Source: Coriobacteriales bacterium (lineage in GTDB: Bacteria > Actinomycetota > Coriobacteriia > Coriobacteriales > Atopobiaceae). From it: a stretch of DNA of 47,129 nucleotides. A model generated the notes under the pieces. The model worked only from the letters and a program-made list of their open reading frames with translations, searched no databases and was not told the DNA's origin. The translations under genes were made by a program, and so were the position numbers. Positions within the stretch are counted from its first letter, which is position 1, and each line of letters begins with the position of its first letter. Of this stretch, positions 26,669-36,133 are shown in pieces. Where the stretch lies: NCBI GenBank assembly GCA_029101205.1, contig JAQXQO010000166.1, positions 1-47,129 of the forward strand, given 5' to 3'.

Positions 26669-26715
26669 GAAGGACATTGGCCCTCCGTGCCTTTGTGCCG
26701 GGGATTTGGTGTCAT

Positions 26716-26746
26716 TTGCGTTCGGTGCCATGAGGCCCCCTATAAT
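26716..26746 (+). promoter_or_regulatory. Promoter of the secDF-recJ-rel operon
   Basis: A consensus -10 box TATAAT lies at 26741-26746, with TTGCGT at 26716-26721 as a long-spaced (19) -35 box. The leader contains a 7-bp hairpin (26769-26785) and ends in GAGGGATG before the secD start. Confidence 0.65.
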
Positions 26747-26806
26747 GTCGGGGTTACGTGTGCAACTTGGGCGGCGCTGCCGCCCTACTGGACGAGGGAT
26801 GACTAT

Positions 26807-28363
26807 ATGGCTCGAAAGAAGGGGGCCCACGAGGCAGAGGAGGAGCGGACGGGCGTGGACCGCTGGAACGCCAGTGTGAACCACGAGTCCGACTCGGCTG
26901 TCAGGCCCAAGCGAAAGAGCAGGCGCACGCGCGCCGACCGACGTCGCTACATCTCGACACTGGTGGTCCTTGTGGTGGTGCTGGCGGTCTGCGCGTTCGG
27001 CTTTACCCCGGTGGGCGAGCGCATCACGCAGGGCCTGGACATCCAGGGCGGCGTGTCGGTCATCATGACCGCCACGAAGTCCGATGGTTCCACGCCGTCC
27101 TCGGACGAGATGAGCGAGGCCACGCAGATCGTGCAGCAGCGTGTGAACTCGCTGGGCGCCTCCGAGGCCACGGTGCAGCAGCAGGGCACCAACTCCATCC
27201 TGGTGCAGATCCCCGGCGCCACGAATGCCGACGACGCCGTGTCCACCATCGGACAGACCGGCCACATCGAGTTCGTGCGCATGGACCAGATTGGCGACGC
27301 CGACGCCCTCGCAAAGCTGAATGCAGGCACCGAGGACGTGCAGTTGGAGGAGGGCACCTACACGGCCTTCCTGGACGGTTCCTCCATCACCAACACGTCG
27401 GTGGACCAGTCCTCCAGCTCCACCAGCGGCTCCTATGCCGTGAACGTCACGTTCAACGACGAGGGCGCGCAGAAGTTCGCCGAGGTCACGAAGGAGCTGG
27501 CCCCCACGAACGGCCGCATCTGCATCGTGCTGGACGGTGTCGTGAAGTCCGCTCCCGCCGTGCAGAGCGAGATCACGGGCGGCAAGGTCTCCATCACGGG
27601 CAACTTCTCGTACGATGACGCCCAGTCGCTGAAGACGGTCCTGGACTCCGGCTCGCTGCCTGTGACGCTGACCTACTCCGAGAGCCGCGTCGTCGGCCCC
27701 ACGCTGGGACAGGACTCGCTGCAGCAGGGCATCATCGCTATCTGCGTGGGCGTGGCCATCGTGGTCGTGTACCTGTTCTTCTTCTACCGCGGCCTGGGCC
27801 TTCTGACCATGGGCTCGCTGGCGGTGTTCGCCGTCCTGTACCTGGGCCTTTTGGCGCTGCTGTCGCACTTCGGCTACTACTCGCTGACGCTACCCGGCCT
27901 GGCGGCCGTGGTGCTGACCACGGGCTCCGCCGCCGACTCCTCCATCCTGGTGCTGGAGCGCTTCCGCGAGGAGATCCGCATGGGGCGCACGGTGAAGAAC
28001 GCGTCGGTCTCGGGCGCAAAGCACGGCATCCGCACCTCGCTGGACGCCGACATCGTGACCCTGGTTACCGCGCTGGCGCTGTTCTTCGTCGCCGTGGGCT
28101 CGGTCAAAGGCTTCGGCCTGACCCTGGCCCTGGGCGTCGCGTGCGACGTGGTCACCATGTTCTGCTTTAAGGCTCCGGCCCTGAGGCTTCTGGCCCTGGG
28201 CACCATCCAGCGCCACCCGAAGTTCTGGGGCGTCGACTACGACCTGGACGAGGCGCAGGCGCGCAAGGAGGCGGCGGCACAGAAGGCCGCCCAGGCGCAG
28301 CAGCAGGACTGCCAGCAGGTCGTGCCTGCCTCGTCCGAGGAGGGGGGTGTCCGCAATGCGTAG
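26807..28363 (+). CDS. secD: Protein translocase subunit SecD
   Basis: 518 residues from the ATG at 26807. A basic N-terminal region (about 1-50, with KRKSRRTRADRRR) precedes the first helix (about 51-70). The motif GLDIQGGVSV (D1) follows, then the large periplasmic-type P1 region (about 85-330), here with a Ser/Thr-rich insertion near 195-210. Five further helices (about 345-500) contain VVGPTLGQDSLQQG and the LTTGSAADSSILVLERFREE block. SecD with SecF uses the proton gradient to assist late steps of Sec export. It overlaps secF by eight bases and heads the operon. The C-terminal tail is Ala/Gln-rich. Confidence 0.95.
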   Translation: MARKKGAHEAEEERTGVDRWNASVNHESDSAVRPKRKSRRTRADRRRYISTLVVLVVVLAVCAFGFTPVGERITQGLDIQGGVSVIMTATKSDGSTPSSDEMSEATQIVQQRVNSLGASEATVQQQGTNSILVQIPGATNADDAVSTIGQTGHIEFVRMDQIGDADALAKLNAGTEDVQLEEGTYTAFLDGSSITNTSVDQSSSSTSGSYAVNVTFNDEGAQKFAEVTKELAPTNGRICIVLDGVVKSAPAVQSEITGGKVSITGNFSYDDAQSLKTVLDSGSLPVTLTYSESRVVGPTLGQDSLQQGIIAICVGVAIVVVYLFFFYRGLGLLTMGSLAVFAVLYLGLLALLSHFGYYSLTLPGLAAVVLTTGSAADSSILVLERFREEIRMGRTVKNASVSGAKHGIRTSLDADIVTLVTALALFFVAVGSVKGFGLTLALGVACDVVTMFCFKAPALRLLALGTIQRHPKFWGVDYDLDEAQARKEAAAQKAAQAQQQDCQQVVPASSEEGGVRNA

Positions 28364-29342
28364 CCACTTCAAGCACGAGATCGCCTTCATCCCGCATCGC
28401 AAGCAGATGCTCAGCGTGTCCCTGGTGCTGGTTATCCTGGCCATCGTGGGGCTGGTGTTCCGCGGGCTGGTCTTTGGCATCGAGTTCAAGGGCGGCACCG
28501 AGATAGACTTCTCGAACACCGGCAGCATCACCATCGAGCAGATGCGCGATGCCCTGGTGTCGGCCGGCGAGGAGAACCCCGTGGTCCAGACCAGCCAGAC
28601 CAATGGCACGTCCGGATTCCTGGTGCGCACCGAGACCACCGACCCCAACACCGCAAACGGGCACGCCGCCACGGCCGCCGACTCCTTGGGCCTCACCGAC
28701 GAGGACTACACTGTGACCACCATCGGCCCCGACTGGGGCGCCAACACCACGCGCTCGTCGCTTCTGGCCTTCGGCGTTGCCATCCTGGCCATCATCGCCT
28801 ACGTCACCATCCGCTACGAGTTCAAGATGTCGCTGACCGCCGTCGTGGCCCTGCTGCATGACCTGCTTATCACGCTGGGCGTATACGCGTGGACCCAGAC
28901 GCCCGTGACGCCCAACGTCGTGGCGGCGCTTCTGACCATCATGGGCTTCTCGCTGTACGACACGGTGGTCGAGTTCAACCGCATCGACGAGAACGCGCGC
29001 CAGCTGAACGACGGCGTCCACAGGACGTACTACCAGATTGCGAACTTCTCGATCAACGAGGTCATCGTCCGTACCATCAACACGACCATCACGACGCTGG
29101 TGCCCGTCATCTGCATGCTGGCCATGGGCGGCTCCACGCTGAAGGACTTCGCGTTTGCCATGCTGATCGGCGAGGTGCTGGGCACCTACTCCAGCTTTGC
29201 CGTGGCATCGCCCCTGCTGTCCATCTGGAAGACCCACGAGCCCAAGTGGGCCAAGCTGGAGCGCAAATACGGCGAGGCCGCCGGCACCACGCGCGTGGAG
29301 GCCGTTTCGAAAAGCGATACCAGCCGGGACTCCCAGGAGTAG
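28356..29342 (+). CDS. secF: Protein translocase subunit SecF
   Basis: 328 residues from the ATG at 28356, overlapping the secD stop; GAGGAGGGG lies upstream, and a GTG at 28347 is a less likely start. Six helices: the first near 22-42, followed by the SecF signature GIEFKGGTEIDF, then a periplasmic loop, then VALLHDLLITLGVY, SLYDTVVEFNRIDEN and LVPVICMLAMGG, typical of the RND-like core. It forms a complex with SecD. The C-terminal 30 residues are polar. Recj/helicase follows after 57 bases with no terminator. Confidence 0.95.
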   Translation: MRSHFKHEIAFIPHRKQMLSVSLVLVILAIVGLVFRGLVFGIEFKGGTEIDFSNTGSITIEQMRDALVSAGEENPVVQTSQTNGTSGFLVRTETTDPNTANGHAATAADSLGLTDEDYTVTTIGPDWGANTTRSSLLAFGVAILAIIAYVTIRYEFKMSLTAVVALLHDLLITLGVYAWTQTPVTPNVVAALLTIMGFSLYDTVVEFNRIDENARQLNDGVHRTYYQIANFSINEVIVRTINTTITTLVPVICMLAMGGSTLKDFAFAMLIGEVLGTYSSFAVASPLLSIWKTHEPKWAKLERKYGEAAGTTRVEAVSKSDTSRDSQE

Positions 29343-29399: not shown

Positions 29400-32300
29400 A
29401 TGTCGGGACTGAAGGACAACAGGCGCTGGGAGTTGCTGCCCAGGGACGTTCGGGTGGAGCGCTTGCTGCAGAAGTCCTGCAACGTCTCGCCCCTCGTCGC
29501 GCGCGTCATGGCGGCGCGTGGCATCAAGACAGCGGAGCAGGCGCAGCGCTTCCTGACGCCGTCCTTGGAGCGCGACTGGCACGATCCGCTGGACATCCCC
29601 GGGATGTCCCAGGCCGCGGACCGTGTGGACCAGGCCCTGCGCGACGGCGAGAGGATCGCCATCTTTGGCGACTTCGACGTGGACGGTATGTCGTCCACCT
29701 GCCTTCTGACGCTGGCGCTGCGCCACTTCGGCGGCGTCGTGGCCCCCTACATCCCCAACCGCTTCGGAGAGGGCTACGGCCTTTCGCGCGAGGCGCTGAC
29801 CCGCGTGATCGAGGGGTCGCACCCCAGCCTCATCGTGACCGTGGACAACGGCATCGCGTCGGCGCACGAGGTGGCGTGGCTTCTGCGGCAGGGCATCGAC
29901 GTCGTGGTGACCGATCACCACGAGCCGGGTGACCTCGTGCCCCAGGGCGTTCCCGTGACCGACCCCAAGCTGGAGGCGGACTGCCCCTCGCGTGACCTAG
30001 CGGGCGCCGGCGTGGCGCTGAAGCTGGTGTGCGAGCTGGGCCGCAGACGGGGAGAGCCCGACTACTGGCGCCACTACACCGAGCTGGCCACGTTGGGCAC
30101 GGTGTCCGACATGATGGTGCTGCAGGACGAGAACCGCGCGCTCGTGGCCGACGGCATACGGCAGATGCGCCACACCGCCCGGCCCGGCCTGGTGGCCCTG
30201 GCCGCCACGGCGGGCATCGACCTCTCGACCGTGACCTCCGACTCGCTGCCCTTCTCGCTCATTCCGCGGCTGAACGCGGCGGGACGCATGGGCTCCACCG
30301 ACCTGGCCTTCGACCTGCTGCTGACGAGCGACCCCGCCGATGCGGCGGTTCTTGCCGGGAAGCTGGAGCAGATAAACAACGAGCGCCGCGAGATCGAGTC
30401 CGAGCTTACCGAGCAGGCCATGGCAAAGCTGGACGCCTCCTACAAGGGCGGACGCGTCATCGTGGTGGGCGGCGAGGGCTGGCACGAGGGCGTGAAGGGC
30501 ATCGTTGCCAGCCGCATCGTAAACAAGTACCACGTACCGACCATCCTGTTTTCCATCTCTGACGGGGTGGCGCGTGGCTCGGGCCGCTCCGTGGGCACGG
30601 TGGACCTCTTTCACGCGGTCGAGCAGTGCTCCGACCTTCTGGTGCGCTTTGGCGGGCATGCGGGCGCCGTGGGCGTCACCTGCGACGTCGAGAACCTGGA
30701 CGCGTTTCGCCAGCGCTTGGAGGAGGTCATGGACCAACTGCCCGCCGAGCAGTTCGAGGACCGCGGCGAGGTGGCCGCCCTCGTGAGCCTGAGCGAGGTC
30801 ACGATGGCCAACATCGCCTCGCTGGAGGCCATGCAGCCCTTTGGCCAGGGAAACAAGAAGCCCCTCTTTGGCGTGCGCGGCGTGCTCATGCGCAACCGCT
30901 CCAGGGTGGGCTATTCGGGCAACCACCTGCGCTTCTTGGCCACGAACGGCGTCTGCAGCGTGCCGGCCATCATGTTTCGCACGCCCGACATCGAACGTGC
31001 CAGCGACTACGAAGGGGCCGTTGACCTGGTGTTCGATGCGGTCAACGAGACCTGGCAGGGTCGCACGAAGCCAAAGCTCATGGTGAAGGACATCCTGTTT
31101 CGCGACGCGAAGGACGTCTCGTGCGACGCGTCGCTCTCCGCCCGGCTATTCGCGCACACCGATGAGATCCTGTCGCGTGACGAGTACGCGGGCATAGCGG
31201 ACGCCACCAGCTTCTTTACGCGCGTGGTGGGCATGCCGGACGCCAAGGCCACGGGCACGCTGAGCGCGGGGCAGACCCTGCGCATGCGGCACCAGGCAGA
31301 CGCCGGCGTGGGGCCTGACCAGGAGTGCCCCGTGGCGCTGCTGGCGCCCGACGGCACCAGGGTGGGGTACCTGCGCAGGCAGATTGCCAACGTTTTGGCG
31401 CCGCTGATGGACGCGGGCACCGAGTACGTGGCCACGGTGGTGGGCTCCTGCCCCTCGGAGGGCTCGTCGTACCTGGGCGTCGAGGTGTGCAGGAGGCCGG
31501 CGCAGCAGGCGGGGCAACCTGCCACGGAAGGCGCCGCGGTGGGCGCGGGCAGCCCAGCCCAGCCCGACGCGGACCTGCGCCGCAAGGAGGAGCTGGCGAG
31601 CCTGGGCTACGACCAGCTGACCGATGGCCTGCGCAGCCGTATGATAGGCGACCACGACTTCCTGCCCGCACAGCGCCAGGCGCTGGAGCTTCTGCGCGAT
31701 GGCCACAACACCTTGTGTGTCATGGCCACGGGCAGGGGAAAGTCCCTCATATTCCACGTGCATGCCGCGCGCGAGGCCATCCTGCACGGCAAGGCCAGCG
31801 TCTTCGTCTACCCGCTGCGCGCCCTGGTGGCCGACCAGCTGTATCACCTGCAGGAAGCGCTGGGCCCTTTGGGCCTGCACGTGCGCACCCTGACGGGTGA
31901 GACGCCCCTGGAGGAGCGAGACGACACCTTCGGCGCACTGGCGGAGGGCAGGGCAGACGTCATCCTGACCACGCCGGAGTTCCTGGCCATTCACTGCGCG
32001 CGTTTTGCGCGCGGCGGCAGGGTGGGCTTCGTCGTGGTGGACGAGGCACACCACGCGGGCTCCTCGCGGGGCGGCGGCCGTGACGCCTACGAGCAGCTGC
32101 CCCAGGTGCTGCACCGCCTGGGCGACCCCACGGTCCTGGCGGTCAGCGCCACCGCCCCCACGCCGGTGGCACGCCACATCTGCCAGCTGTGCTCCATCAA
32201 GCCTGACGACGTGGTGGTGGACCGCTCCGTGCGCCAGAACCTGACGCTGCGTGACCTGCGCGAGCTGCGTGAGCGCGAAGCCGCACTGGTGTCGGTGGTG

Positions 32301-33107
32301 GCCAGCGGGCAAAAGAGCGTCGTGTACGTGAACTCGCGCGAGCAGTCGGTGTCCCTGGCTCGCATGCTGCGCCGCGACATACCCGACCTCGGTCACCGCA
32401 TAGCGTTCTACAACGCAGGGCTCACCAGGGCGGACCGCGCCAGCGTGGAGTCGGCGTTTCGCGACGGCACGCTGACCTGCATCATCAGCACCAGCGCGTT
32501 CGGCGAGGGCGTGAACCTGCCCGACATCCGCAACGTGCTGCTGTACCACATGCCCCTGGGCTCCATAGAGTTCAACCAGATGAGCGGGCGCGCGGGGCGC
32601 GACGGCAAGCCCGCCAGCGTATACCTGCTGTTCGGCAGCCGCGATGCGCGCGTGAACGAGAGGATCCTCTCGGGTGCCGCACCCTCCCGCGACGAGCTGG
32701 CGACGCTGTACCGCACGCTCATGACCATTGCGCGCAGCCGCGCCACGCGCCAGACGCCCGACGGGCTGGCGGAGTTCCGCCTGGCGAACGCAGACATAGC
32801 GCAGGCCGCGCTGGACCTGAACCCCTGCACGCGCGTGGACGAGCGCACGGTGTCCTGTGGCATATCCATCTTCCGCGAGCTGGGGCTCCTGCGGGTGCAG
32901 GGCTTCGGCAGCGCCCGCGCCATCAGCATGACCCCGTCGCCTGCCCACGTGGACCTGGACAGCTCGATTCGCTTCCTGGAGGGAGCCCGCCTGCGCGAGG
33001 AGTTCTCGTCCTTCTGCGACTGGGCGCTGTCTTCCAGGCCTCAGGAGATGCTCAGCAGAATAAATAGGCCCATAACTCCTTCTTTTGGGCGTATTGTGGA
33101 GAACTAG
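29400..33107 (+). CDS. recJ: RecJ single-strand exonuclease fused to a HIRAN domain and a RecQ-like helicase
   Basis: 1235 residues in one frame; typical RecJ is 550-800. GAGGGGCG precedes the ATG. Residues 1-590 are RecJ: DFDVDG (Asp91, 93, 95), TVDNG (Asp149), TDHH (172-174), NAAGRMGS (292-299), the DHHA1 motif GGHAGAVG (418-425) and an OB-like domain. Residues about 604-697 resemble a HIRAN domain (FFTRVVGM, VGYLRRQIANVLAPL), which binds single-strand DNA ends. After an Ala/Gly linker, 755-1130 form a superfamily 2 helicase: ATGRGKS (776-782), DEAH (881-884), SAT (916-918), FGEGVNLPD and QMSGRAGRDG (1060-1069). The last part has no recognised RecQ zinc or HRDC domain. It probably unwinds and degrades 5' ends in repair, as the separate RecJ and RecQ do. 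The gap to rel is 25 bases. Confidence 0.93.
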   Translation: MSGLKDNRRWELLPRDVRVERLLQKSCNVSPLVARVMAARGIKTAEQAQRFLTPSLERDWHDPLDIPGMSQAADRVDQALRDGERIAIFGDFDVDGMSSTCLLTLALRHFGGVVAPYIPNRFGEGYGLSREALTRVIEGSHPSLIVTVDNGIASAHEVAWLLRQGIDVVVTDHHEPGDLVPQGVPVTDPKLEADCPSRDLAGAGVALKLVCELGRRRGEPDYWRHYTELATLGTVSDMMVLQDENRALVADGIRQMRHTARPGLVALAATAGIDLSTVTSDSLPFSLIPRLNAAGRMGSTDLAFDLLLTSDPADAAVLAGKLEQINNERREIESELTEQAMAKLDASYKGGRVIVVGGEGWHEGVKGIVASRIVNKYHVPTILFSISDGVARGSGRSVGTVDLFHAVEQCSDLLVRFGGHAGAVGVTCDVENLDAFRQRLEEVMDQLPAEQFEDRGEVAALVSLSEVTMANIASLEAMQPFGQGNKKPLFGVRGVLMRNRSRVGYSGNHLRFLATNGVCSVPAIMFRTPDIERASDYEGAVDLVFDAVNETWQGRTKPKLMVKDILFRDAKDVSCDASLSARLFAHTDEILSRDEYAGIADATSFFTRVVGMPDAKATGTLSAGQTLRMRHQADAGVGPDQECPVALLAPDGTRVGYLRRQIANVLAPLMDAGTEYVATVVGSCPSEGSSYLGVEVCRRPAQQAGQPATEGAAVGAGSPAQPDADLRRKEELASLGYDQLTDGLRSRMIGDHDFLPAQRQALELLRDGHNTLCVMATGRGKSLIFHVHAAREAILHGKASVFVYPLRALVADQLYHLQEALGPLGLHVRTLTGETPLEERDDTFGALAEGRADVILTTPEFLAIHCARFARGGRVGFVVVDEAHHAGSSRGGGRDAYEQLPQVLHRLGDPTVLAVSATAPTPVARHICQLCSIKPDDVVVDRSVRQNLTLRDLRELREREAALVSVVASGQKSVVYVNSREQSVSLARMLRRDIPDLGHRIAFYNAGLTRADRASVESAFRDGTLTCIISTSAFGEGVNLPDIRNVLLYHMPLGSIEFNQMSGRAGRDGKPASVYLLFGSRDARVNERILSGAAPSRDELATLYRTLMTIARSRATRQTPDGLAEFRLANADIAQAALDLNPCTRVDERTVSCGISIFRELGLLRVQGFGSARAISMTPSPAHVDLDSSIRFLEGARLREEFSSFCDWALSSRPQEMLSRINRPITPSFGRIVEN

Positions 33108-33132: not shown

Positions 33133-35490
33133 ATGACAACGGAAGACAAGCCTGCCAAAGAGTCCCACAGCAAAGGCGCGATTCCCGACGCAGACAACTA
33201 CCGTTTGCTGCAGTCGGCCTGTGCCGCCTACCTGGATTCCCAAAGCTGCGAGCGCATCCAGCATGCCTATCGCTTTGCGGCGCAGTTCCACAGAAACCAG
33301 AAGCGCCGCTCCGGCGAGGCGTACATCAACCACCCGGTCGAGGTGGCCCTGATTCTCTCGAAGGACCTGCACATGGACGCGGACTCCATCTGCGCCGCGC
33401 TGCTGCACGACACCGTGGAGGACACCCCTGCTACCCTGGACGACCTCAGAAAGCTGTTCGGCGAGACCGTGACCGAGCTGGTGGACGGCGTGACGAAGCT
33501 GACGTCCATCCAGGTGGCCTCCATGGACGAGAAGCAGGCGCTCAACCTGCGCAAGATGTTCCTCGCCATGTCCAAGGACATCCGCGTGGTCATCATCAAG
33601 CTGGCGGACCGCCTGCACAACATGCGCACCCTGGCTGCGCTGCCTCCCGACAGGCGTCTGTTCAAGGCGCGCGAGACCATGGACGTCTATGCGCCACTGG
33701 CCGACCGCCTGGGCATGAGCTCCATAAAGTGGGAGCTCGAGGACCTGTCCTTCTTCTACCTGTATCCCGAGGAGTACCAGCGCATTGCACGCATGGTGCA
33801 AGAGACGCGCGCCCAGCGCGAGCAGAACACCGAGGAGGCCATAAAGACCCTCTCGGACGAGCTGGTGCGCGTGGGGCTGAACCACTTCCAGATAGCCGGC
33901 AGGCCCAAGCACCTGTGGTCCATCTACCAAAAGATGAAGCGCAAGGGCATGGAGTTCAGCCAGATATACGACCTCATAGCGCTGCGTGTCATCACCCAGA
34001 CCGTGGGCGAGTGCTACTCGGTCCTGGGAGCCGTGCACACGCTGTGGCACCCGCTGTCCGGGCGCTTCAAGGACTACATAGCCATGCCGAAGGCCAACGG
34101 CTACCAGTCGCTGCACACCACGGTCATAGGCCCCGAGGCGCGACCCATCGAGATCCAGATCCGCACGCAGCAGATGCACGAGCAGGCCGAATACGGCATC
34201 GCCGCCCACTGGCTGTACAAGAAGTCCGGCAACTCCGAGGGTCAGATGTCGCGCGACGACAAGATGGTCGACTCTCAGATCAACTACATCCGCCGCAGCC
34301 TGGACTGGGTCAGCGAGACCGAGATAGACGACCCGCGCGAGTTCCTGAACAGCCTGCGCGTGGACCTCTTTGAGGGCGAGATCTTCGTCTTTACCCCAAA
34401 GGGCGAGGTCATGAGCATGCGCCGCGACTCGACGCCCCTGGACTTCGCCTACTCGGTGCACACCGAGGTGGGCAACCACTGCGTCGGCGCAAAGGTCAAC
34501 GGCTCGGTGGTGCCCCTGACCTACAAGCTGCAGACCGGCGACCGCGTCGAGATCTTGACGAACAAGAACTCCCACCCGTCGCGCGACTGGATGAACATCG
34601 CCGTCACTCCCTCGGCACGCTCGAAGATACGCAAGTACTTCAGCACGGTGACGAAGGCCAGCGACGCCGAGCAGGGCCGTGCCCAGCTGGCGCGCGAGCT
34701 GCGCAAGAGGGGCTATGGCATCTCGACGCCCAGGACGGTCAAGGCCATCGACCGCGTCCTCGAAGCGTTCGACGTGCGCACGAGCGACGACCTGTTCCAG
34801 GGCATCTACAACGGCAAGGTCTCCGAGAAGCAGGTGGCTAACCGCATCCAGGCCATCCTGGAGGAAGGCACGCCCGAGCAGATAGCGGCAGCCCAGAAGG
34901 CAGCCGAGGAGGAAGAGGCCCGTGCCACGGCCATCGCCGAGGACAAGCCCTTGCACCCCGCCGGCGTGTCGCAGCGCACCACGCATCGCTCTCCCGAGCG
35001 CAAGCGCACGAACTACGGAGTCATCGTGACGGGCGACCCGGACCTGCTGGTGCACCTGGCGCACTGCTGCAACCCCGTGGCAGGCGACGAAATAGTGGGC
35101 TTCGTCACGCGTGGGCGCGGCGTGTCGGTGCACCGTGCGAACTGCCCCAACGTAAAGAGCCTGATGAAGCACCCCGAGCGCATGATCGACGTCCAGTGGG
35201 ACACGTCTGGCGCCACCGAGTTCCAGGTGGAGATCGTGGTGGAGGCCACGGACCGCATGGGGCTTCTGAAGGACGTCACCATCGCCATAAACGACGCCGG
35301 TGCCAACATCCTTTCGGCTGCGACGCAGACCAGCAAGCAGGGGGTGGCGCGCCTGCGCTTCCTTGTGGCCATATCGGACGCCAGCCTCTTGGACACGCTT
35401 CTGACGTCTGTCAGCCACGTGCCCTCGGTGTTCGACGCCCGCCGCATCATGCCCGGTGAGGGCGGCAACGAGATGAGAAGGAGGGTCTAG
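33133..35490 (+). CDS. rel: Bifunctional (p)ppGpp synthetase/hydrolase Rel
   Basis: 785 residues from the ATG at 33133 (AGGGGAG upstream). Domain order is normal for long RSH enzymes. The HD hydrolase has ALLHDTVEDT (His92-Asp93) and the upstream R-x-x-GEAYINHP. The synthetase has IYDLIALRV, RFKDYIAMPKANGYQSLH and EIQIRTQQMH. A TGS domain lies at about 416-476 and a C-terminal ACT domain at about 705-785. The RFKD (311-314) is the R-x-K-D form associated with bifunctional Mg-dependent enzymes, not the E-x-D-D of monofunctional RelA. It can therefore make and remove alarmone, including that made by the small synthetase at 17398. It is flanked in the operon by recJ/helicase and a metallo-hydrolase that starts one base after its stop. 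Confidence 0.96.
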   Translation: MTTEDKPAKESHSKGAIPDADNYRLLQSACAAYLDSQSCERIQHAYRFAAQFHRNQKRRSGEAYINHPVEVALILSKDLHMDADSICAALLHDTVEDTPATLDDLRKLFGETVTELVDGVTKLTSIQVASMDEKQALNLRKMFLAMSKDIRVVIIKLADRLHNMRTLAALPPDRRLFKARETMDVYAPLADRLGMSSIKWELEDLSFFYLYPEEYQRIARMVQETRAQREQNTEEAIKTLSDELVRVGLNHFQIAGRPKHLWSIYQKMKRKGMEFSQIYDLIALRVITQTVGECYSVLGAVHTLWHPLSGRFKDYIAMPKANGYQSLHTTVIGPEARPIEIQIRTQQMHEQAEYGIAAHWLYKKSGNSEGQMSRDDKMVDSQINYIRRSLDWVSETEIDDPREFLNSLRVDLFEGEIFVFTPKGEVMSMRRDSTPLDFAYSVHTEVGNHCVGAKVNGSVVPLTYKLQTGDRVEILTNKNSHPSRDWMNIAVTPSARSKIRKYFSTVTKASDAEQGRAQLARELRKRGYGISTPRTVKAIDRVLEAFDVRTSDDLFQGIYNGKVSEKQVANRIQAILEEGTPEQIAAAQKAAEEEEARATAIAEDKPLHPAGVSQRTTHRSPERKRTNYGVIVTGDPDLLVHLAHCCNPVAGDEIVGFVTRGRGVSVHRANCPNVKSLMKHPERMIDVQWDTSGATEFQVEIVVEATDRMGLLKDVTIAINDAGANILSAATQTSKQGVARLRFLVAISDASLLDTLLTSVSHVPSVFDARRIMPGEGGNEMRRRV

Positions 35491-35491
35491 C

Positions 35492-36133
35492 ATGGCCCAG
35501 GAGAGCACGCAGCAGGGCGCCCCGTCGAAGCCGGAGGTCAGGCACTTCGTGGTGGGCCCCATCCAGACCAACTGCTACGCGTACGTCTGTGACGGCGAGG
35601 CCATGGTGGTGGATCCAGGTGACGCTGGACAAAAGATAGCCGACCAGCTGAAGGGCGTGCACGTCAGCCTGATCGTGGCCACGCACGGACATGGCGATCA
35701 CGTCAGCGGCGTGGCACAGCTGCAGAAGGCCACCGGGGCGCCGTTTGCCATGAACGCGGCCGACGTTGACCTGGCCACGCACGCCACGCACAATTCCCGC
35801 TGGGCCAGCGAGGACGCGCCCCAGCCGCAAAGGCTTCTCTCGGAGGGCGACCAGGTGCAGGTGGGGTCTGCCACGCTGCAGGTGCTTGCCGCCCCCGGCC
35901 ACACGCCTGGCGGCATCGTGCTTCTGGGGGACGGGGTCGCCTTCGTGGGCGACACCATCTTTGCGGGATCGTGCGGTCGCACCGACCTGGATGGGGGAGA
36001 TTCCCAGGCCATGCAGCAGACGCTGGCCCGCCTGTGCCAGGCAATCCCTCCCGACACCGTGCTTCTGTGCGGCCACGGTCCCATTACGAACATGCGCCAC
36101 GAGCTCCAGACGAACCCCACGTTCCCGCGCTAG
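35492..36133 (+). CDS. Metallo-beta-lactamase-fold hydrolase (glyoxalase II-like)
   Basis: 213 residues, with AAGGAGG seven bases before the ATG, just inside the end of rel. The metal ligands are visible: THGHGDH (about 65-71), APGHTPGG (about 133-140), GDTIFAGSCGRTD (about 150) and CGHGP (about 189). The short form without the C-terminal glutathione-binding helices resembles YcbL-type proteins, which hydrolyse thioesters such as S-lactoylglutathione in some species. As actinobacteria usually lack glutathione, a different thioester is more likely here. It ends the secD operon; a small hairpin follows without a T run, then the tRNA-Leu gene. Confidence 0.88.
   Translation: MAQESTQQGAPSKPEVRHFVVGPIQTNCYAYVCDGEAMVVDPGDAGQKIADQLKGVHVSLIVATHGHGDHVSGVAQLQKATGAPFAMNAADVDLATHATHNSRWASEDAPQPQRLLSEGDQVQVGSATLQVLAAPGHTPGGIVLLGDGVAFVGDTIFAGSCGRTDLDGGDSQAMQQTLARLCQAIPPDTVLLCGHGPITNMRHELQTNPTFPR

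Follow-up and report, generated by a model that had tools for sequence, protein, structure and literature searches.

A housekeeping RecJ joined to an intact RecQ-like helicase in one chain, and its apparent kinship with the tails of other Gram-positive RecJs

Does the long frame at positions 29400–33107 of contig JAQXQO010000166.1, from a Coriobacteriales bacterium (47,129 nt; this whole stretch is called the window), encode one helicase-nuclease, and if so, where would such a protein come from? The frame runs uninterrupted from ATG to TAG over 1235 codons, and its product is the cell's housekeeping RecJ, extended by a HIRAN-like segment and a RecQ-like superfamily 2 (SF2) helicase. We think that this RecJ probably acts as a single-chain helicase-nuclease for 5′-end resection, and that it goes back to an ancient fusion that has stayed intact in some lineages and decayed in others.

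An earlier note, made from the letters alone, had proposed RecJ, a HIRAN-like domain and a RecQ-like SF2 helicase in one polypeptide, and had named an artefactual join at about 31500–31650 as what would undo the proposal. We found no such join: third-position G+C stays at an even 86–95% in each 100-codon block over the RecJ/helicase junction, L039, a protein of the window's own genus, shares 69% identity with the window protein over its full length, and dozens of orthologues in independent genomes read continuously through the junction. The source is a draft assembly of 174 contigs, which is the one point in favour of a frameshift or of two genes joined in assembly, but the orthologues already refute that explanation and leave it a negligible chance. 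The order of the Pfam domains bears out the proposed architecture. The RecJ core is complete, with DHH, DHHA1 and OB domains and the DFDVDG, DHH and GGH motifs, and residues 30–565 belong to the NCBIfam recJ family by whole-model score (TIGR00644, 477.6 bits against a cut-off of 396.9). These motifs are unbroken in every relative compared in our motif table, where every motif named in the earlier note was also found, so that its statement that the catalytic residues are intact in both halves holds. Membership in the RecJ family predicts a 5′→3′ exonuclease activity on single-stranded DNA (ssDNA). A search of the window's genome returned no second recJ, making the fusion its sole RecJ, and the gene stands in the canonical order secD-secF-recJ-relA, the interval between secDF and relA being the customary site of recJ in Gram-positive bacteria.

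In the helicase half, SF2 motifs I, Ia, Ib, II, III, IV, V and VI are all intact, and Pfam DEAD and Helicase_C both score over their cut-offs. The NCBIfam RecQ models match residues 747–1105 at scores below cut-off (TIGR00614, 156.3 vs 219.8 bits; TIGR01389, 159.8 vs 640.2 bits), and Pfam gave no match to an RQC/Zn-binding or HRDC domain, either in the whole protein (E up to 1) or in its C-terminal part (E up to 10). Because of these scores and the missing RQC/HRDC matches we class the helicase as RecQ-like, not RecQ, which keeps the earlier reading of a RecQ-like motor with all motifs and drops membership in RecQ itself. A structural model of the helicase (predicted local distance difference test, pLDDT, 85.5) has its best matches in WRN, BLM and RecQ (Z 27–28), and the solved helicases nearest to the fused motor in sequence are RecQs; the Foldseek and VIA lists for this model are filled by helicases and give no separate test of HIRAN or of the winged helix. 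Two archaeal metagenome-assembled genomes (MAGs; L087 and L089, Caldisphaera and Acidilobaceae) encode frames of ~1400 amino acids (aa) with a helicase part 24–27% identical to the fused motor and no RecJ match.

Between the two halves, the HIRAN model (PF08797) scores 20.4 bits in the window protein by hmmscan (residues 618–683, E 4.5e-4) and 25.5 bits in a six-frame genome search, around a cut-off of 24.7, whereas relatives score clearly above it at 36.7–59.4 bits. There is thus a match within residues 604–697, but a marginal one. In the HIRAN of HLTF, which binds ssDNA with a reported preference for 3′ ends and forks, the pocket includes N90/N91 and Y93 in the stretch RDPNNPYDK (PMC4666394). 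The window protein reads RHQADAGVGPDQE at this stretch and does not conserve it, whereas its relatives keep an NPYDxNA-like sequence; because of this degradation, DNA binding by the eroded HIRAN of the window protein looks doubtful. HIRAN lies within the RecJ frame in almost every sampled Coriobacteriia genome outside the window's order. Within that order the window's genus keeps it, as do a few others (G104, G110, G118, G130), and most members have recJ frames of ~1100–1160 aa that lack HIRAN with the helicase motifs intact, so that coupling would not depend on HIRAN. Many genomes of the order whose RecJ lacks HIRAN (for example G042, G024, G060) encode a separate small protein, in a frame of ~110–220 aa, with little beyond HIRAN. 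The earlier idea that HIRAN hands the end from helicase to nuclease therefore looks weak: its pocket is degraded, most of the order has lost it, and the HIRAN of HLTF is reported to bind ssDNA, its 3′ end or forks while RecJ uses 5′ ends. By analogy with HLTF, a more likely task for HIRAN than the delivery of a 5′ end to RecJ would be to position the motor on the 3′ or unpaired strand.

The survey covered Actinomycetota and, for Bacillota, a single sample of 199 genomes centred on the genome of a Desulfosporosinus record. A recJ was found in 292 of 298 Coriobacteriia genomes, usually as one match, the listed frames being nearly all of 1000–1340 aa, and at all 30 loci read from the Coriobacteriia search RecJ is joined to RecA1 in a single frame. 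The survey that the earlier note had suggested across Coriobacteriia thus finds the architecture to be near class-wide but not restricted to the class. The full fusion also occurs in Oleimmundimicrobium-type Actinomycetota MAGs (L059–L063; 36–38% identity over nearly the full length) and in Bacillota, where 20 recJ frames of 1091–1272 aa were read and 16 are fusions with intact helicase motifs (L103–L118, one of them cut by a contig end) and 4 carry dead helicases. The order secD-secF-recJ-relA is conserved with the class-wide recJ, and the site beside relA is common to both phyla. A scan of genome contigs with two short patterns returned 12 loci, Oleimmundimicrobium-type fusions among them, two patterns saying nothing on absence from other phyla; a scan of viral contigs returned no relatives of the fusion, and a viral origin was dropped. 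One fusion of 1340 aa (L083/L102, from the MAG record DYIV01000050, named Slackia heliotrinireducens) shares only ~40% identity with the window protein, and neither of the two trees described below places it within the Coriobacteriia clade; its organism name looks wrong. In one genome, G007, a RecJ of 571 aa stands directly before relA with no helicase remnant adjoining, a true clean loss of the HIRAN-helicase half, and its genus mates G003 and G005 keep frames of 1210–1212 aa. Two further suspected losses, the short RecJ frames of G135 and G119, proved to be cut by contig ends.

Whether genomes with the fusion lack separate recJ and recQ genes, as the earlier note had asked, has a divided answer. 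There is no second recJ in the window's genome, but a stand-alone RecQ is encoded on another of its contigs, and a separate RecQ is present in ~125 of 199 Coriobacteriia. The other ~74 (~37%), some of which are incomplete drafts, yield no RecQ match that outscores the fusion (best E weaker than 1e-100), and in these the fusion may serve as the sole RecQ-type motor.

Relatives with less than a whole motor form a graded series. In the motif table, every fusion from Coriobacteriia and from Oleimmundimicrobium-type genomes has intact helicase motifs, as do 16 from Bacillota, and the dead helicases of Bacillota (L119–L122) keep homology to the fused helicase with its motifs lost. Two of these (L120, L122) retain both RecA domains, motif I reading STAVVDIS and QGSLATRM and motifs V and VI being lost; in the other two (L119, L121) RecA1 is fragmentary and RecA2 recognisable. 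Tail-only RecJs carry RecA2/winged helix alone, in Actinomycetota (L073, L069, L070, L068 and others) and in Bacillota (L099–L101 and 20 more of 772–821 aa, these 20 picked by frame length alone), three of the tails from Bacillota being textbook cases of PF10141 (ssDNA-exonuc_C; 214–233 bits). Three Bacillota genomes (G696, G725, G752) have two RecJ genes each, one long (975–1106 aa frame) and one shorter (763–794 aa), and in G725 and G752 the long RecJ carries a dead helicase (L120 and L119, respectively).

A profile of the fused RecA2 and winged-helix region reaches actinobacterial tails (in a small tail set: L073, E 5e-19; L070, E 1e-9; L069, E 5e-8) and Bacillota tails (L141 at E 6e-15, L130 at E 2e-12). 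In local profile-profile comparison with the same region, all sampled Bacillota tails gave P 6e-24, actinobacterial tails P 3e-19 and six PF10141-type tails P 7.7e-8 (94.5%), and the controls (RecA1, HIRAN, column-reversed, column-shuffled) P 0.15 or more. Pfam supplies further links, from a fused helicase (L047, E 0.0046, below cut-off) and from the L073 tail (E 8e-4) to PF10141. Neither the C-terminus of the window protein nor the window's genome has a direct Pfam match to PF10141, for which reason we base the homology of the tails on the profile-profile comparison and the intermediates. A profile of the winged helix alone, searched in the PDB, did not reach S. aureus RecJ by sequence and gave weak MarR/SmtB-type winged-helix matches only. 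An AlphaFold2 model of a PF10141 tail (pLDDT 88.6) best matches the tail in the S. aureus RecJ crystal structure (8y30 558–756, Z 17.2); winged helices come next, together with the RecA2 halves of WRN, RECQL4, RECQL5 and BLM (Z 6–7). One could suppose that the likeness merely reflects common Rossmann-like and winged-helix folds, given such low Z scores and a P of only 0.02 for PF10141-type tails against RecA2 alone. We regard this as highly improbable, since the tail match is collinear over more than 220 columns, the actinobacterial and broad Bacillota tails reach P ~5e-8 against RecA2 alone, the intermediates are graded, and the protein, the position within it and the locus all agree. For Bacillus-type tails, with their P of only 0.02, the RecA2 part rests on collinearity and the intermediates. 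We conclude from these comparisons that the PF10141 tails of Bacillus and Staphylococcus appear homologous to the RecA2 and winged-helix half of the fused helicase, and that the RecJ tail in both genera is very likely a worn-down remnant of the same motor.

Coriobacteriia form one clade (99–100) in the RecJ and the helicase tree alike, the same main Bacillota subgroups appear in both, and the fused helicases make a single clade apart from two RecQ-like outgroups. Because the trees are broadly congruent, the helicases one clade and the locus shared, the data favour one old fusion that was vertically inherited and repeatedly eroded, rather than repeated fusion, and the direction of change would be loss rather than gain. 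Had fusion occurred repeatedly, or had whole recJ genes passed horizontally between Bacillota and Actinomycetota with PF10141 tails as a separate ancestral form, one would understand why, in the RecJ tree, tail-only forms lie between scattered intact fusions (seven changes for the full Bacillota fusions); deep branching in that tree is weakly supported, and the Oleimmundimicrobium-type RecJs group with Bacillota in it. The single, broadly congruent helicase clade, the same relA-side site in both phyla and the dead two-domain intermediates, which loss predicts directly, make this history improbable. We are fairly confident that Gram-positive RecJ was ancestrally a single-chain helicase-nuclease, that the PF10141 tail (8y30) is the fossil of its motor, and that Coriobacteriia and some Bacillota keep the whole machine, which in many Coriobacteriia is the sole helicase of RecQ type.

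For the function of the intact protein we reason by analogy. RecQ-type motors move 3′→5′ and open duplex for RecJ to digest the 5′ strand (PMC11442139 and references there). In the window protein, the C-terminal RecQ-like motor (RecA1-RecA2-winged helix, ATP-dependent, 3′→5′ by homology) would open the duplex at ends or gaps, the N-terminal RecJ core would digest the displaced 5′-ended strand, and a 3′ single strand would remain for RecA loading by RecFOR, the single chain holding motor and nuclease on the same end. HIRAN, where present, probably helps to bring the motor to a fork or to a single-stranded or 3′ end, and would be dispensable. In other lineages the motor would have decayed to a dead two-domain form and then to the RecA2 and winged-helix tail (PF10141), the RecJ active site staying intact. 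Coupled unwinding and degradation, as the earlier note had suggested, is thus a fair expectation from intact motifs in one chain, although hardly by a HIRAN hand-over.

Several observations weigh against this account. The separate RecQ of the window's genome means that the fused motor is not the sole such helicase there, and the clean loss in G007 suggests that the helicase half is not indispensable. The motor lies under every RecQ cut-off and has no RQC/HRDC match, so its RecQ polarity is only predicted. On the evolutionary side, the PF10141-type tails against RecA2 alone are not significant, most of their signal lying in the winged-helix half; the tail-model matches to RecA2 domains, taken alone, would be weak, at background level; and L102 and some other rows are placed differently in the two trees. 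A real fused helicase might instead serve fork remodelling, gap processing or R-loop removal, with RecJ independent or a mere anchor, as the separate RecQs in the window's genome and other Coriobacteriia, the preference of HLTF HIRAN for forks (PMC4666394) and the decay of the helicase in many lineages beside an intact RecJ could indicate. We consider such a role unlikely, since both sequence and model put the motor nearest to RecQ, RecQ–RecJ resection is an established pairing (PMC11442139), and strong motif conservation in one chain argues for joint action. Resection by a single-chain RecJ remains the account that we prefer. The positions of the gene, its domains and its neighbours are collected in the table.

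Table. The recJ fusion gene of the window, its domains and the adjoining genes (positions in the window; residues of the fusion protein)
Feature	Position	Strand	Residues	Remarks
secD neighbour	26687..28363	+		conserved synteny
secF neighbour	28347..29342	+		conserved synteny
recJ fusion gene	29400..33107	+		1235 codons; RecJ, HIRAN-like, RecQ-like SF2 helicase, winged helix
DHH domain	29652..30101	+	85–234	Pfam; DFDVDG 91–96, TDHHE 171–175
DHHA1 domain	30450..30731	+	351–444	Pfam; GGHAGAVG 418–425
RecJ OB domain (RecJ_OB)	30780..31091	+	461–564	Pfam
HIRAN-like segment	31212..31448	+	~605–683	marginal score; GVTFEGRQ and NPxDxNA stretches of relatives degraded here
Helicase RecA1	31665..32168	+	756–923	Pfam DEAD; motif I MATGRGKS 775–782, Ia, Ib, II VVDEAHHA 879–886, III VSATA 915–919
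Helicase RecA2	32286..32606	+	963–1069	Pfam Helicase_C; motifs IV, V STSAFGEGVNLPD, VI NQMSGRAGRDG
Winged-helix-like C-terminal region	32667..33095	+	~1090–1232	with RecA2, apparently homologous to PF10141-type RecJ tails
relA/spoT neighbour	33133..35490	+		conserved synteny; likely ATG 33133 after GGAGGGGAG ribosome-binding site

Just downstream of relA, positions 35492–36133 encode a metallo-β-lactamase-fold hydrolase, which glyoxalase II models match below cut-off.

Our searches of the open-access literature turned up no account of a RecJ-helicase fusion, nor of how the RecJ tail arose. What appears new here is that RecJ tails, PF10141 included, are homologous to the RecA2 and winged-helix half, with dead helicases as intermediates, and may be read as its eroded remnants. 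A 2024 review states that how RecJ and RecQ cooperate in end resection remains unclear (PMC11442139); with a natural version in one chain, coupling, hand-over and processivity become open to direct tests. The series of decayed forms would also explain how the RecJ C-terminal domain evolved and points to possible sites of its partner-binding surfaces, and the survey suggests that many Coriobacteriia rely on the fusion as their only RecQ-type helicase.

Among known systems, the RecJs of E. coli, Thermus, Deinococcus and S. aureus (TIGR00644) share the complete core, the motifs and the relA/secDF setting of the window gene, but typical RecJs have no motor, whereas the window RecJ adds an intact SF2 helicase and a HIRAN-like segment. 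RecQ has the same kind of RecA1-RecA2 core as the window motor, in which RQC and HRDC matches are missing. The RecQ and RecJ pair, a 3′→5′ motor that feeds 5′ strands to RecJ, is the scheme proposed here, but it consists of two proteins that each bind SSB and for which no direct interaction is reported (PMC11442139), whereas the window encodes one chain. The PF10141 tail (8y30 558–756) sits at the same position in RecJ and appears homologous to the fused RecA2 and winged helix; it lacks RecA1, the helicase motifs and HIRAN and is catalytically dead, in contrast to the intact helicase of the window protein. In S. aureus this tail has been described as a nonconserved C-terminal domain (PMC11442139). 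The Deinococcus RecJ likewise has an extra domain after the OB fold that contacts partners: it binds HerA (PMC4663267), and it is reported to hold a pocket for the SSB tail and to have a sequence very unlike that of the S. aureus tail (PMC11442139). DinG with an N-terminal 3′-5′ exonuclease (S. aureus, B. subtilis) also combines a nuclease and an SF2 helicase in one bacterial protein, but with the opposite polarity and from different nuclease and helicase families (PMC12345164). Archaeal HAN-Hef brings a RecJ-family nuclease and an SF2 helicase together in fork repair (PMC5717133), much as in the window protein, but as two interacting proteins of archaeal families rather than as one chain.

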